64,000 nucleotides of DNA from Snowella sp. (GTDB taxonomy: Bacteria > Cyanobacteriota > Cyanobacteriia > Cyanobacteriales > Microcystaceae): assembly GCA_003249095.1 (NCBI GenBank), contig QBMS01000005.1, forward strand, positions 17,737 through 81,736, in the 5' to 3' direction. Both the position numbers and the translations under genes were made by a program. Shown piece after piece: positions 6,985-44,855 of this stretch. The stretch's first letter is position 1, and each line of letters starts with the position of its first letter. Under the pieces are notes generated by a model. That model was given only the letters and a program-made list of their open reading frames with translations, was not told the origin of the DNA and ran no database searches.

Positions 6985-7124
6985 GATAGAAAAGCTGATT
7001 TTTCACTGAATAAATATTAAACGCGCGATCGCATTTCTAATTTTATCGAGAAAATCCCATTCTTTCTTTCTTTAGGTCAAGCCGAGTTGCTAAAATAATC
7101 AAGCTGAAATTAGGAAATATTCTC

Positions 7125-7715
7125 ATGGGCGATCGCTTACAGGGCTTGAATCTCTACCTCATCGGGATGATGGGAACGGGCAAAACAACAGTGGGTCAGC
7201 GATTAGCTAAGGAATTAGGCTATCGTTTTTTTGATACGGATGTTCTCATTGAACGGGTGGCTCAAAAGAGTATTAATGAGTTGTTTGCAGAAGACGGAGA
7301 AACTTTTTTCCGAGATTTAGAAAGTCAGGTATTAGGGGAAGTCTCAGCCTGTACTCGGAGCGTTATTGCAACAGGAGGCGGCGCGGTGTTGCGTCCTGTC
7401 AATTGGGGTTATTTGCGGCATGGATTGATTATCTGGCTTGATGCGCCGATTTCCCTGCTGGTAGAAAGACTCGCAGAAGACAATACCCGTCCTTTACTCA
7501 AAATTGATGATCTGTCCCTGAAGCTAGAAACTTTGTTAGCAGAACGAAAATCCCTCTATCAAGAAGCCGATTTACAGATTGCGATCGCCAAAAATGAAAA
7601 TCCTGAGCAAATAGTCTCAAAAATCCTAGAACAAGCCCCCAACGTCTTAAAATCCCCTGAAAAATCACCCCAACCAGGCGAAATAAATCCTGAAGATCCC
7701 AACGAATTCAATTAG
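7125..7715 (+). CDS. aroK: Shikimate kinase
   Basis: GMMGTGKTTVGQRLA P-loop, FFDTDVLIE, GGGAVLR, RPLL motifs. Confidence 0.95.
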   Translation: MGDRLQGLNLYLIGMMGTGKTTVGQRLAKELGYRFFDTDVLIERVAQKSINELFAEDGETFFRDLESQVLGEVSACTRSVIATGGGAVLRPVNWGYLRHGLIIWLDAPISLLVERLAEDNTRPLLKIDDLSLKLETLLAERKSLYQEADLQIAIAKNENPEQIVSKILEQAPNVLKSPEKSPQPGEINPEDPNEFN

Positions 7716-7749
7716 CATAGAATTAAAAATTTTTTGTTCTAGAACTGCT

Positions 7750-8208
7750 ATGGAAACCAATCTTCCCAGTCTTGCTCACGGAACCCTACGGAAAGTGCAT
7801 CATATCGCCTTTAACGTCAAAAATATGGACATTTCTCGCCATTTTTACGGTCAAATTTTAGGCTTAACCGAATTAACAGGGGATGCGGTTCCCTCTACCC
7901 TCAAATCCCTCGTTGAACAGGGAAAAGTCGCCAATTTTATGACTCCCGACGGCACAATTATCGATCTATTTTGGGAACCTGATTTATTGCCGCCCCATCC
8001 CGATCCGACCCAGGGCTTTACCCGTGCCAATCATCTTGCCTTTGATATTGCTCCCGAAGCTTTTGATGACGCGATCGCGGTTTTACAATCCCACCAAGTC
8101 GCGATCGACCACGGCCCCGTGACCCGACCGACTGGCAGAGGCATCTATTTTTATGACCCCGATGGTTTTATCCTCGAAATTCGTTGCGATCCCGAAAGCT
8201 CCCTTTAA
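7750..8208 (+). CDS. VOC-family (glyoxalase/dioxygenase-fold) protein
   Basis: HHIAFNVKNMDISRHFYGQILGL ... GIYFYDPDGFILEIRCDP. Confidence 0.88.
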   Translation: METNLPSLAHGTLRKVHHIAFNVKNMDISRHFYGQILGLTELTGDAVPSTLKSLVEQGKVANFMTPDGTIIDLFWEPDLLPPHPDPTQGFTRANHLAFDIAPEAFDDAIAVLQSHQVAIDHGPVTRPTGRGIYFYDPDGFILEIRCDPESSL

Positions 8209-40561: not shown

Positions 40562-41527
40562 TTATTTTTTGACAGTTTCTAGCCACTGAATGACGGTTTT
40601 TCCCAAGTTCACTCCTTCTAGGCGATCGATTTCTCGAATTCCCGTTGGACTAGTGACATTCACTTCGGTTAAGTAGCCTCCAATGACATCAATGCCGACG
40701 AGATATAAACCATCTTGGACTAATTTCGGGCCAACGATCGCACAAATTTGCTGTTCTCGGTCGGTAATTTCGGTTTTTGCCACCCTTCCACCCACGGCCA
40801 TATTGCCGCGAAATTCTTGCCCTGTGGGAATGCGATTCACCGCACCAATGGGTTCGCCATTCAATAAAATAATACGTTTATCACCGTCTTTGGCTTCGGG
40901 TAAAAATCGTTGAACCATGACTGGCTCCTGTCCCTGTTGGGTACTAACTTCGATCATGGAATTAAAATTGCGATCGCCTGGTTCAAGGAAAAGAATACCT
41001 TCTCCTGCCTTTCCTCCTAAGGGTTTAAGAACGGCTTGCTGATGTTTTTCCACAAATTGCCGAATCAAAGCTTTATCTTGACTCACCATTGTTGCGGGCA
41101 TAACCGACAGAAATTGAAAAGTGTACATTTTTTCATTGGCATTGCGCAATCCCTGGGGAGAATTAATCACTAAGGTTTTGGCGGGATCAATCAAATCCAA
41201 AATATAGGTGACATAGAGATAACGCACATTAACAGGCGGATCTTTTCGCATCAAGACCGCATCCATTTCTTCCAAATTGCGAACCACAGGCTCAGAAACC
41301 TGATACCAATCAGGAGCCGCGACCCAACGCCCTTCTACCAATTCAACGGGGGTTAATGTTAACTGTTGTAATGACGCGCAGGCTTTCCCATCCATCACAC
41401 TCAATTGATGAATTTCTGTCACCCAAACTTCATGACCCAATATTTGGGCGGCTTCCATGATGGCGACACTGGTATCATGGGTGGGATCGAGCAGGGAAAG
41501 GCGATCGATAATAAAAGCAAGTTTCAT
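40562..41527 (-). CDS. gshB: Glutathione synthetase
   Basis: MKLAFIIDRLSLLDPTHDTSVAIMEAAQ; VLKPLGGKAGEGILFL; EVNVTSPTGIREI. Confidence 0.95.
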   Translation of the reverse strand: MKLAFIIDRLSLLDPTHDTSVAIMEAAQILGHEVWVTEIHQLSVMDGKACASLQQLTLTPVELVEGRWVAAPDWYQVSEPVVRNLEEMDAVLMRKDPPVNVRYLYVTYILDLIDPAKTLVINSPQGLRNANEKMYTFQFLSVMPATMVSQDKALIRQFVEKHQQAVLKPLGGKAGEGILFLEPGDRNFNSMIEVSTQQGQEPVMVQRFLPEAKDGDKRIILLNGEPIGAVNRIPTGQEFRGNMAVGGRVAKTEITDREQQICAIVGPKLVQDGLYLVGIDVIGGYLTEVNVTSPTGIREIDRLEGVNLGKTVIQWLETVKK

Positions 41528-41606
41528 AGAGTCTAGCCCCACATTCTATAGATTGATCAGCACATTAAATAATAACCTTGTTGGGTCTTTTCTCTATTCT
41601 TCAAAA

Positions 41607-41870
41607 TTACAGAATTGACTTTATGGGAAATCTTTCAGGATTTTTAATAATATCTGTACTTAAATCAACATCTAAATCTGGCCAATAAAAATGATTAGGA
41701 GAAGGTTCTTGCACATTTAATATTTGTTTAACCGAAGCCTCTTTAAACCAAGGAAAATTTTCGTAATCAAGAAACATTTCATCATTTTCGGCAAGTATCC
41801 ATATTCCGTGAGAGGATATATGGGTAACTTCAACTGTTAAAATGTTTTTTCCAAGCGTTTCTAATTTCAT
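41607..41870 (-). CDS. DUF2442 family protein
   Basis: VEVTHISSHGIWILAENDEMFLDYENFPWFKEASVKQILNVQEPSPNHFYWPDLDVDLSTD. Confidence 0.85.
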   Translation of the reverse strand: MKLETLGKNILTVEVTHISSHGIWILAENDEMFLDYENFPWFKEASVKQILNVQEPSPNHFYWPDLDVDLSTDIIKNPERFPIKSIL

Positions 41871-42069
41871 TTTGTCGTTCCTCAATGATTTTTTCAATAG
41901 TTTTAAGTTGTTGCCGAGATAATTTGTAGTTACGAGCTAATTCAATTTGGGGTTCGAGCCAAAACTTCGCTTCTCCATCTCCACAATAAACATGAACGTG
42001 CATTCTTAGTTCTTCACGAGAGAAGAAAAAGAAACGATAGTTATCTTCTCGAAATATTGTTGGATTCAT
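41830..42069 (-). CDS. DUF4160 family protein
   Basis: FREDNYRFFFFSREELRMHVHVYCGDGEAKFWLEPQIELARNYKLSRQQL; overlaps the DUF2442 ORF. Confidence 0.88.
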   Translation of the reverse strand: MNPTIFREDNYRFFFFSREELRMHVHVYCGDGEAKFWLEPQIELARNYKLSRQQLKTIEKIIEERQNEIRNAWKKHFNS

Positions 42070-42088: not shown

Positions 42089-42925
42089 TTAAAAGTCACC
42101 TTCAGCGACCTGTAAGCAAGTTAATCCTAATTGTCGCCACATTTGTACTACTTGATTTCTATCATCTAATACAAAATCAATATTATAAAAACCTCGAATT
42201 TGAGTGTCAAATATTTCTTTCTTGATAATAGCATCTTTGCGAAAATCTCCTGTCTCTCTCATGATTAATTTTTCATAATTAATTTGATGTTTATCTAAAA
42301 AATTAATCGTTTGTTCTCGATATTTATCTTCTCTCCCTGATACTAATAGCACTAACTTATCTTTAATTAAGGAAGCTACAACAGGATTTAAGATATCATT
42401 TTCACACCTTGAAGCATCGTAGGGACTTCTACCATTCAAAAGAGCTAAGGTTCCATCAAGGTCACAAATAATGGCATGGGGTAAATTGGGGTCAATAACA
42501 ATTTCCTCTGGCTTGGGAGCCAAAAAATCGTTATACATTTGTCGAATAACTTTTTCCCCAACGGAATTTAGGCGATTAAGATCTCTTTTAATGCACGTTT
42601 CAAGTTCAACATCAGTAAAATCTTGAATAATAACTTCTGCGATACCCTTAGTTAATTCTCGAATTGTCTTTTCGTGTTTGGGATGCAAATTAGTATCATC
42701 AATAATCACGTGCTTTCCTTCTTCGAGAGCCATTAACATGATTTGATTCCGAATTTTTAGGACAAATTTTTCTGCATCTTTAGAATGCTTGGAATTGTCT
42801 AGCATTGCTCTCAAATCATCTTTATTGATACGTTTATATTGATTAGGGTTTTTATCAATCAGTTTTTTTGCCCAGGTAGATTTTCCGCTTCCTGGCAATC
42901 CCTTAGTCATAATCACTTTTTTCAT
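42089..42925 (-). CDS. Pnkp-like polynucleotide 5'-kinase / 3'-phosphatase
   Basis: P-loop GLPGSGKSTWAKKL, then HAD-type CDLDGTLALLNGRSPYD ... VLLVSGREDKYREQT ... FVLDDRNQVVQMWR; same domain order as T4 Pnkp. Confidence 0.9.
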   Translation of the reverse strand: MKKVIMTKGLPGSGKSTWAKKLIDKNPNQYKRINKDDLRAMLDNSKHSKDAEKFVLKIRNQIMLMALEEGKHVIIDDTNLHPKHEKTIRELTKGIAEVIIQDFTDVELETCIKRDLNRLNSVGEKVIRQMYNDFLAPKPEEIVIDPNLPHAIICDLDGTLALLNGRSPYDASRCENDILNPVVASLIKDKLVLLVSGREDKYREQTINFLDKHQINYEKLIMRETGDFRKDAIIKKEIFDTQIRGFYNIDFVLDDRNQVVQMWRQLGLTCLQVAEGDF

Positions 42926-43935
42926 ATTTCTAGTTTAAAGGGTTTACTATGCTCAGGTTTAATCATTTTCCAAATTAGCTCGGAAGGATCTTTTTCATCT
43001 AATAGGCGAAACATGACGTGGGGATATTTTTGAGTTAAAAAATAGGCGGCTGTTTCCTTGCGAGTCTCAAAGGTTTTAAAGGCAGATTTTGCTTCTGATA
43101 AAATCGCGTCAAATTGCTGGGTTAATTCCATTTTAGTTTGTTTAACCCATTCATAAAATTCATCGGGAACTTTTTCTAGTAATTCTTCAAAGGATTTTCC
43201 TGTGGCGAGATTTTCCCAGACAACGGTGCTAGAAGTTTGAGTAATAATACGATGGAGTCTGACGTATTCTGAGAATTTGACTTTGACCCGAAATCCATTT
43301 TTAAAACGAATGACAAAACCTTCCTGATTTTCTTTTTCAATTTCTCGTAATTGGCTTAAATCATTAATGCCATTAAATTTTTTGACGATGGGAAAACCAA
43401 TATCGGGAATCAATAAATCTTGACCTGTTTGAGAGTCTAGGACTGCCAATAAAATGAGGTCATCTAGGTCGCCATAATTAACCACAATTCTGTTTTCGGG
43501 ATAAATAATTTCAAATAAATAGGTATGTTCCCGATTGAGTGAATTAAAGGTATGGCCATAACGATCGCGTAATAATTGGGTAGCGTGCAGGGCTTGATCG
43601 CTGCTAAAACTTCCCCTAGTGGCGATCGCGGGCTTATCATTAATCCAATAAAGAATTCCTAGAGAACCATCTTCTTTATTAAAAACATCAAAGGCTTCCT
43701 GGGGAATTTCTTCAGGAGAATGTTCCTCTAAATTGAAGAATTTTTTAAAGGGTCTGGCGACAATATTCATTTCTTTGTCGAGAATTAATCCTCGCGTCAT
43801 GAGGGTGATCTCATTCCAAAGTTTTTGATATTGAACCAAGGGAGAATAGTTATAAATAAACAGATCAGTATCAGGATGTTTTTGCACTAATACTAATTTT
43901 TGTTCGAGCATTGACTTTAATAAATCTTTGTCCAT
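42922..43935 (-). CDS. T4 Rnl1-like RNA ligase
   Basis: Motif I FNKEDGSLG (KxDG), FEIIYPENRIVVNYG, EGFVIRFKNGFRVKVKFSEYVRLH; overlaps the Pnkp-like gene by 4 nt. Confidence 0.88.
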   Translation of the reverse strand: MDKDLLKSMLEQKLVLVQKHPDTDLFIYNYSPLVQYQKLWNEITLMTRGLILDKEMNIVARPFKKFFNLEEHSPEEIPQEAFDVFNKEDGSLGILYWINDKPAIATRGSFSSDQALHATQLLRDRYGHTFNSLNREHTYLFEIIYPENRIVVNYGDLDDLILLAVLDSQTGQDLLIPDIGFPIVKKFNGINDLSQLREIEKENQEGFVIRFKNGFRVKVKFSEYVRLHRIITQTSSTVVWENLATGKSFEELLEKVPDEFYEWVKQTKMELTQQFDAILSEAKSAFKTFETRKETAAYFLTQKYPHVMFRLLDEKDPSELIWKMIKPEHSKPFKLEI

Positions 43936-44104
43936 GCGTTTTTTTGTAATGCTAAATTTTTTTTGCAAAACTGAAGTAATTTACAAATTTATCAAATACT
44001 TTTTGGAACATAAGTTTAAGGACAAAAGATATTCTGTCCCTACGGCTGTGTTGTATTTCTATTAGTTTTGGATTTTTAAGGCCTATCCCAGAATTGTATT
44101 GAAA

Positions 44105-44365
44105 TTAGACAGCCAATAAGGGATCTAGTTTTTTTTGTCTTTCTAGAGCATGGAGATCGTCACAGCCACCGATATGCTGATCGTCAATAAAAATCTGGGG
44201 AAGACTCCTGCTTCCGTTTGCCCGATCTGCCATCTTGTTTCTGGCTTCATTATCTCCGTCAATGCAATATTCCGTAAATTCCACATTTTTTCTATTTAAT
44301 AAAGCCTTGGCCCGAATGCAAAAAGGACAGGAACTCCAGGTATAAATTTCAACTTTGGCTGCCAT
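44105..44365 (-). CDS. grxC: Glutaredoxin 3
   Basis: VEIYTWSSCPFCIRAKALLNRKNVEFTEY; SLPQIFIDDQHIGGCDDLHAL. Confidence 0.95.
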   Translation of the reverse strand: MAAKVEIYTWSSCPFCIRAKALLNRKNVEFTEYCIDGDNEARNKMADRANGSRSLPQIFIDDQHIGGCDDLHALERQKKLDPLLAV

Positions 44366-44855
44366 ATTTTTTGTCAATGTAAAGTAACGTTTCTATTTGT
44401 GATTGTAAACTGTGGTTAAGATAAAGAGCAATATGAGCGGACAAGAAGTGACAATTTATTTTCTCTTGGTGGGTAACATTCTATCAATGAAATGAGTTCT
44501 TCTAACCGCTTAAAATAATCTCCTCAAAACGGTATTTAGCAGATCCTATTGGTAACCGCTGCATAATGATAGGGCAAAATCCAGACCATCAATCACGAAA
44601 TTACTAAATCACCATAATGTCTCAAAATATCCTTAATTCTGAGATTAGAGGCTAAATCTTAGTAATTCTTGTCATCAAGTTGATGATCGTCTGTTCTTCT
44701 TTCGTTTAATGGGAGAAGAAACCGCGATCGCCCAATCAAAGCAAGAAAACAGAGATAAAACGCGATCGTTGAATTACTATCAAATTTATAAAAAAGTTAA
44801 CAAAGCCTATAAAATAGTTAACAAACGCCTATCAAAAGCAAAAGGTTCAATTTTT

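Follow-up and report, generated by a model that had tools for sequence, protein, structure and literature searches.

A probable two-gene RNA repair module of Rnl1-type ligase and T4-type Pnkp inserted in a cyanobacterial chromosome

Phage T4 encodes an RNA ligase, Rnl1 (RnlA, gp63), and a polynucleotide kinase-phosphatase, Pnkp (PseT), and the two genes described here belong to the same two enzyme families, with the same kinase-then-phosphatase order and conserved active sites. The pair of T4 is phage-borne and has four genes separating pseT from rnlA, whereas in the present locus the ligase and Pnkp genes overlap and are not in a phage. That ATP-grasp RNA ligases are paired with PNK-HAD enzymes in phages, jumbo phages among them, and in bacteria has already been described, and the logic of healing plus sealing is considered general (PMC7824862); the locus presented here follows the same logic but is chromosomal rather than phage-borne. 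The RNA repair survey of Burroughs and Aravind (NAR 2016) reportedly covers such pairings as well.

The locus lies in a 64,000-nucleotide stretch of DNA from Snowella sp., referred to as the window, and has the following features.

44105 to 44377, minus strand: grxC, the upstream flank of the insertion
42922 to 43935, minus strand: Rnl1-type ATP-dependent RNA ligase, the probable true ORF from its ATG, 337 aa
42089 to 42925, minus strand: T4-type polynucleotide 5'-kinase / 3'-phosphatase (Pnkp), 278 aa
42182 to 42210, minus strand: sigma-70 consensus TTGACA-17-TATAAT, 12/12, inside the 3' end of pnkp
41830 to 42069, minus strand: DUF4160 protein, DhiT-like toxin candidate, within the insert
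41607 to 41897, minus strand: DUF2442 protein, DhiA-like antitoxin candidate, overlapping the DUF4160 gene
40562 to 41542, minus strand: gshB, the downstream flank, found directly after grxC in relatives

We consider, with a probability of roughly 0.8, that the ligase and Pnkp genes form a horizontally acquired bacterial RNA repair module of two genes, one for healing and one for sealing. The original prediction had placed two ORFs here with a 4-nt overlap, and this holds: both are on the minus strand, and the ATGA at 42922-42925 is common to the end of the ligase gene and the start of the Pnkp gene. The ligase ORF was first drawn from a TTG at 43968 (42922-43968, minus strand), which is probably too far upstream. 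The likely start codon is the ATG at 43935, since this codon is present at residue 12 of the long ORF, residues 1-10 have a pLDDT of 51 compared with 94 in the next block, and the alignments to most relatives start at query residues 10-17.

The ligase matches Pfam RNA_lig_T4_1 (PF09511; E 2.5e-18) and phrog_562 (RNA ligase and tail fibre attachment catalyst, T4 RnlA type; residues 20-346, E 2e-69). Of these two Rnl1 family profiles one extends into the C-terminal domain, and the Pfam search gave no match to PF16542. Against NCBIfam TIGR02308, the T4 RnlA equivalog, the score is 72 bits, below the 242-bit cut-off; judged by these profiles the protein is a member of the Rnl1 family and not a T4 RnlA equivalog. 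The KEDG at residues 98-101 (numbering of the long ORF) supplies the lysine of the KxDG motif and is accompanied by nucleotidyltransferase motifs III, IV and V. Lys98, Asp100, Gly101, Glu153, Glu216, Lys229 and Lys231 are invariant in an alignment of 74 relatives, so that the Rnl1-type motifs originally reported are upheld by the two profiles and by conservation, and loss of the catalytic lysine is seen in none of these homologues.

The active sites of both enzymes were also compared with those of T4 over residues that we take to be essential. Using T4 numbering, the ligase is identical at Arg54, Lys75, Phe77, Lys99, Glu100, Asp101, Gly102, Glu159, Glu227, Gly228, Lys240 and Lys242, and Pnkp at Lys15, Ser16, Asp35, Arg38, Arg126, Asp165, Asp167, Thr169, Arg176, Arg213, Asp277 and Asp278. 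The sole mismatch among the residues checked in the two enzymes is Lys119 of the T4 ligase, which is replaced with an arginine (Arg118). The active-site residues of the pair are thus conserved relative to T4 and are also conserved in 74-89 relatives. Pnkp, which is about 41% identical to T4 Pnkp over aligned residues, consists of an N-terminal P-loop kinase (AAA_33, 1.8e-18) followed by a DxDGT phosphatase (HAD_PNKP, 9e-48) and matches the phrog_505 polynucleotide kinase end to end (5.8e-91), which agrees with the T4 Pnkp order previously noted. Its best sequence matches in the PDB are Capnocytophaga Pnkp1 and T4 Pnkp, and that of the ligase is T4 Rnl1. Given the family E-values, chance resemblance is excluded for both proteins. 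A role of Pnkp in DNA repair may also be considered, as it would be compatible with the sequence.

An AlphaFold2 model of the ligase, with the 74-row alignment as input, has a mean pLDDT of 92.8. Searching the PDB with this model using Foldseek gave T4 Rnl1 as the top matches (2c5u, 5tt6 and 9do4; E 1e-18 to 2e-16), followed by the ligase domains of fungal Trl1. The superposition on T4 Rnl1 of the whole model, with the domains not separated, has a TM score of 0.59 and an rmsd near 10, which suggests that the helical C-terminal domain may be arranged differently from that of the T4 enzyme.

With its T4-like domain order and active sites, the pair bears out the earlier description of a healing-and-sealing RNA repair pair in a cyanobacterial chromosome. 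From the homology to T4 Pnkp and Rnl1 we infer the likely chemistry. Pnkp would remove the 2',3'-cyclic phosphate or 3'-phosphate of a broken RNA and phosphorylate its 5'-OH, after which the ligase, adenylylated on Lys98 (long-ORF numbering), would join the 3'-OH and 5'-phosphate ends. The substrates would be tRNAs or other structured RNAs cut to give 2',3'-cyclic phosphate and 5'-OH ends, whether by anticodon nucleases or toxin RNases; RNAs cut by RNases that leave a 2',3'-cyclic phosphate, such as the anticodon nucleases, seem the most likely. Such a module would enable the cell to recover from, or to resist, this kind of RNA damage, and, judging from the family, a role in defence or counter-defence is plausible.

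The pair is a chromosomal insertion between grxC and gshB, as these genes are directly adjacent, on the same strand and 12-239 bp apart, in the 23 family relatives where both were in the stretch fetched; in six more, grxC fell outside the short stretch around gshB. In the window a gap of 2.56 kb separates them, in which the ligase, Pnkp, DUF4160 and DUF2442 genes are all on the strand of the flanking genes. The insert has a GC content of 0.34 compared with 0.41 for the window, a value as low being found in 3% of equal-size windows, and no convincing target-site duplications were seen at its ends. The neighbours inspected are housekeeping genes (grxC, gshB, ycf66, folB, cinA, S30AE and gyrase/topoisomerase subunit A). 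There are no phage structural or integrase genes among these inspected neighbours, part of the genes of the window having been scanned; together with the adjacency of the flanking genes in relatives, this supports the claim that no phage structural genes surround the pair, and argues against a prophage.

Within the cyanobacteria the pair is rare and scattered: a ligase match of any kind is found in 16/386 genomes and only a handful of these reach 50% identity. The closest orthologues, 75% and 67% identical, are in genomes G004 and G064, both of which have grxC-gshB intact and hold the pair at other sites amid unrelated chromosomal genes. Conservation of the neighbourhood across cyanobacteria was not found, with no third gene conserved beside the pairs compared that might name a substrate. 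Both the ligase tree (100/99) and the Pnkp tree group the window with G004 and G064, with Bacteroidota and phage copies near this trio. Neither tree resolves the deeper order or the donor, and a phage sister is not favoured. A topology in which L102 joins the trio could not be rejected (p-AU 0.285). The nearest neighbour of the G237 and G384 copies is a viral contig (100/99), and they stand outside the trio; on this tree they are a separate arrival, and a single origin of all cyanobacterial copies was rejected. At other cyanobacterial loci (L007, L210-L213, L215-L217) we observed a second, far more divergent ligase (about 25% identity) adjoining a Pnkp with 52-55% identity to that of the window, giving the same healing enzyme with a different sealing enzyme.

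Beyond the cyanobacteria, the best 80 ligase matches among genome contigs are almost all from Bacteroidota, and relatives at 50-65% identity are mostly in chromosomal repair loci of this phylum. As the search patterns were derived from the protein of the window itself the sampling is biased, and the Bacteroidota share holds for near relatives rather than for the whole family. Taking the whole set, Pnkp is the next gene to the ligase in 48 loci. Other genes that recur in some of the loci are a WYL regulator, encoded on the opposite strand (cluster c4, 30 loci), TatD (c10, 22 loci), Hen1 (c13, 17 loci), a PF16542-type Rnl (c18, 16 loci) and RlaP (c22, 12 loci). A Rhizobium plasmid carries an Rnl1 homologue (L175, 35%) that adjoins an rtcR regulator gene, with no Pnkp in the stretch shown. 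This recurrent company argues for a role in RNA repair without naming the substrate. In Flavobacterium (L114, L123, L126 and other loci) conserved genes without a known family also lie near Rnl1-Pnkp (clusters c11, c12, c17, c26); the product of one of them has 746 aa and no more than a marginal match to Prok-RING_4.

The pair might instead be phage-derived cargo for counter-defence, either a remnant or kept because it blunts the anticodon nucleases of hosts or rivals. Relatives of the ligase reach 63% identity in IMG/VR contigs, a homologue is present in 1,543 phage records, and the same pair occurs in a few Bacteroidota phages; the ligase and Pnkp genes are near a tape-measure-like gene in L013 and in L012/L093, a Dyadobacter locus that IMG/VR classes as viral. 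We nevertheless regard this explanation as doubtful, as a phage sister group finds no preference in the trees, the cyanobacterial copies inspected have no adjoining phage genes, and a Pnkp gene is within about 6 kb of the ligase in only 8/80 viral loci compared with 63/80 genomic loci, where it is on the same strand. The T4-phage or "domesticated phage" origin originally proposed is likewise not supported, since the trees do not resolve the donor, the nearest relatives are mostly Bacteroidota chromosomal loci with a few Bacteroidota phages, and the T4 ligase itself is very distant (89/323 aligned residues identical, about 28%). In the viral contig L013 the Pnkp frame is split into two ORFs (7011-7849), through either disruption of the gene or a fault in the assembly.

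It would seem unlikely, but is worth setting out, that the pair is one half of a self-repair circuit in which a RloC/PrrC-like ATPase of the host cuts tRNAs under stress and the pair reseals them. The same genome (G000) encodes a 495-aa AAA_13 ATPase, P0005 (L231:10566-12050, contig C179), and is the only one of seven genomes tested in which an AAA_13 protein passes the family cut-off; in the phylum sample such proteins are rare, with 16/386 over the cut-off, most in distant lineages. The C-terminus of P0005 aligns with zinc-hook RloC-like proteins, with Arg406, Glu410 and His464 common to both, and by this alignment Arg406-x3-Glu410 and His464 correspond to the catalytic triad of RloC/PrrC. 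Mutation has shown that the RloC triad is needed for cleavage (PMC2610378). P0005 itself, a putative tRNase, lacks the CXXC zinc hook and has an E-to-His spacing of 53, one above the published range of 36-52. Its gene is unlinked to the pair, and no RloC/PrrC-type gene over the cut-off was found in the other cyanobacterial pair carriers searched, so that P0005 is a lead and not proof of a circuit. Its best PADLOC matches are PDC-S06 candidate models and related proteins are found on mobilizable and conjugative plasmids. RtcB is also present in the genome. Near the AAA_13 gene there is a 112-aa ORF (L231:9769-10104, minus strand) that looks PemK/MazF-like by eye, with no PADLOC match. The specific proposal that a zinc-hook-less RloC/PrrC-type nuclease and the acquired Rnl1-Pnkp pair make up a cut-and-repair circuit in one chromosome is slightly less probable again; if true, it would make a suicidal defence a reversible arrest.

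DUF4160/DUF2442 pairs are a validated type of toxin-antitoxin system (PMC8198452); the text consulted does not state the mechanism of DhiT. That the pair and the adjacent DUF4160/DUF2442 genes are one unit, mending damage done by this toxin, is very improbable: the pair and the DUF4160 gene share a strand and an insert and are only 19 bp apart, but other members of the family that lack this ligase have close copies of DhiT, the other cyanobacterial and Bacteroidota pairs examined have no DUF4160/DUF2442 genes, and dhiTA likely has a promoter of its own in the 12/12 consensus inside pnkp, which precedes the DUF4160 gene by about 110 nt. A functional link was rejected since the association is not conserved, and DhiTA is probably a passenger that is transcribed separately.

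Returning to the reading as an acquired repair module, the pair represents a compact bacterial counterpart of the T4 repair pair outside a phage, and indicates that such modules travel between distant bacteria and phages. With a clean comparison to the empty site, and with several close relatives at hand, the repair targets of bacterial Rnl1-Pnkp become directly testable, and a candidate cutting enzyme is pointed to within the same cell.

Among known systems, the Rnl1-Pnkp loci of Bacteroidota (Flavobacterium, Emticicia, Runella, Saprospiraceae and others; L092-L171) resemble the locus in having Pnkp next to or near the ligase, on the same strand in most, with ligases 50-64% identical to that of the window; they differ in often including a WYL regulator, Hen1, a PF16542 Rnl or RlaP, none of which adjoins the pair in the window. 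A search for the Hen1 methyltransferase gave no match in five genomes and its control genomes likewise gave no signal. The Pnkp-Hen1 system TIGR04075, an 850-aa kinase-phosphatase-ligase fusion, has no match over the cut-off in G000. The Pnkp1-Rnl-Hen1 system of Capnocytophaga (PMC4411300, PDB 4xrp) is also similar, in that Pnkp1 is the best PDB relative of the window's Pnkp and the ligase and Pnkp genes are co-translated with the ligase first. Its ligase, however, is of the bacterial Pnkp ligase-domain type, whereas that of the window matches PF09511 and not PF16542. The pair falls within a class of RNA-repair genes already recognised in bacteria and phages, and what is new is its setting and the presence of a possible cutter elsewhere in the genome.
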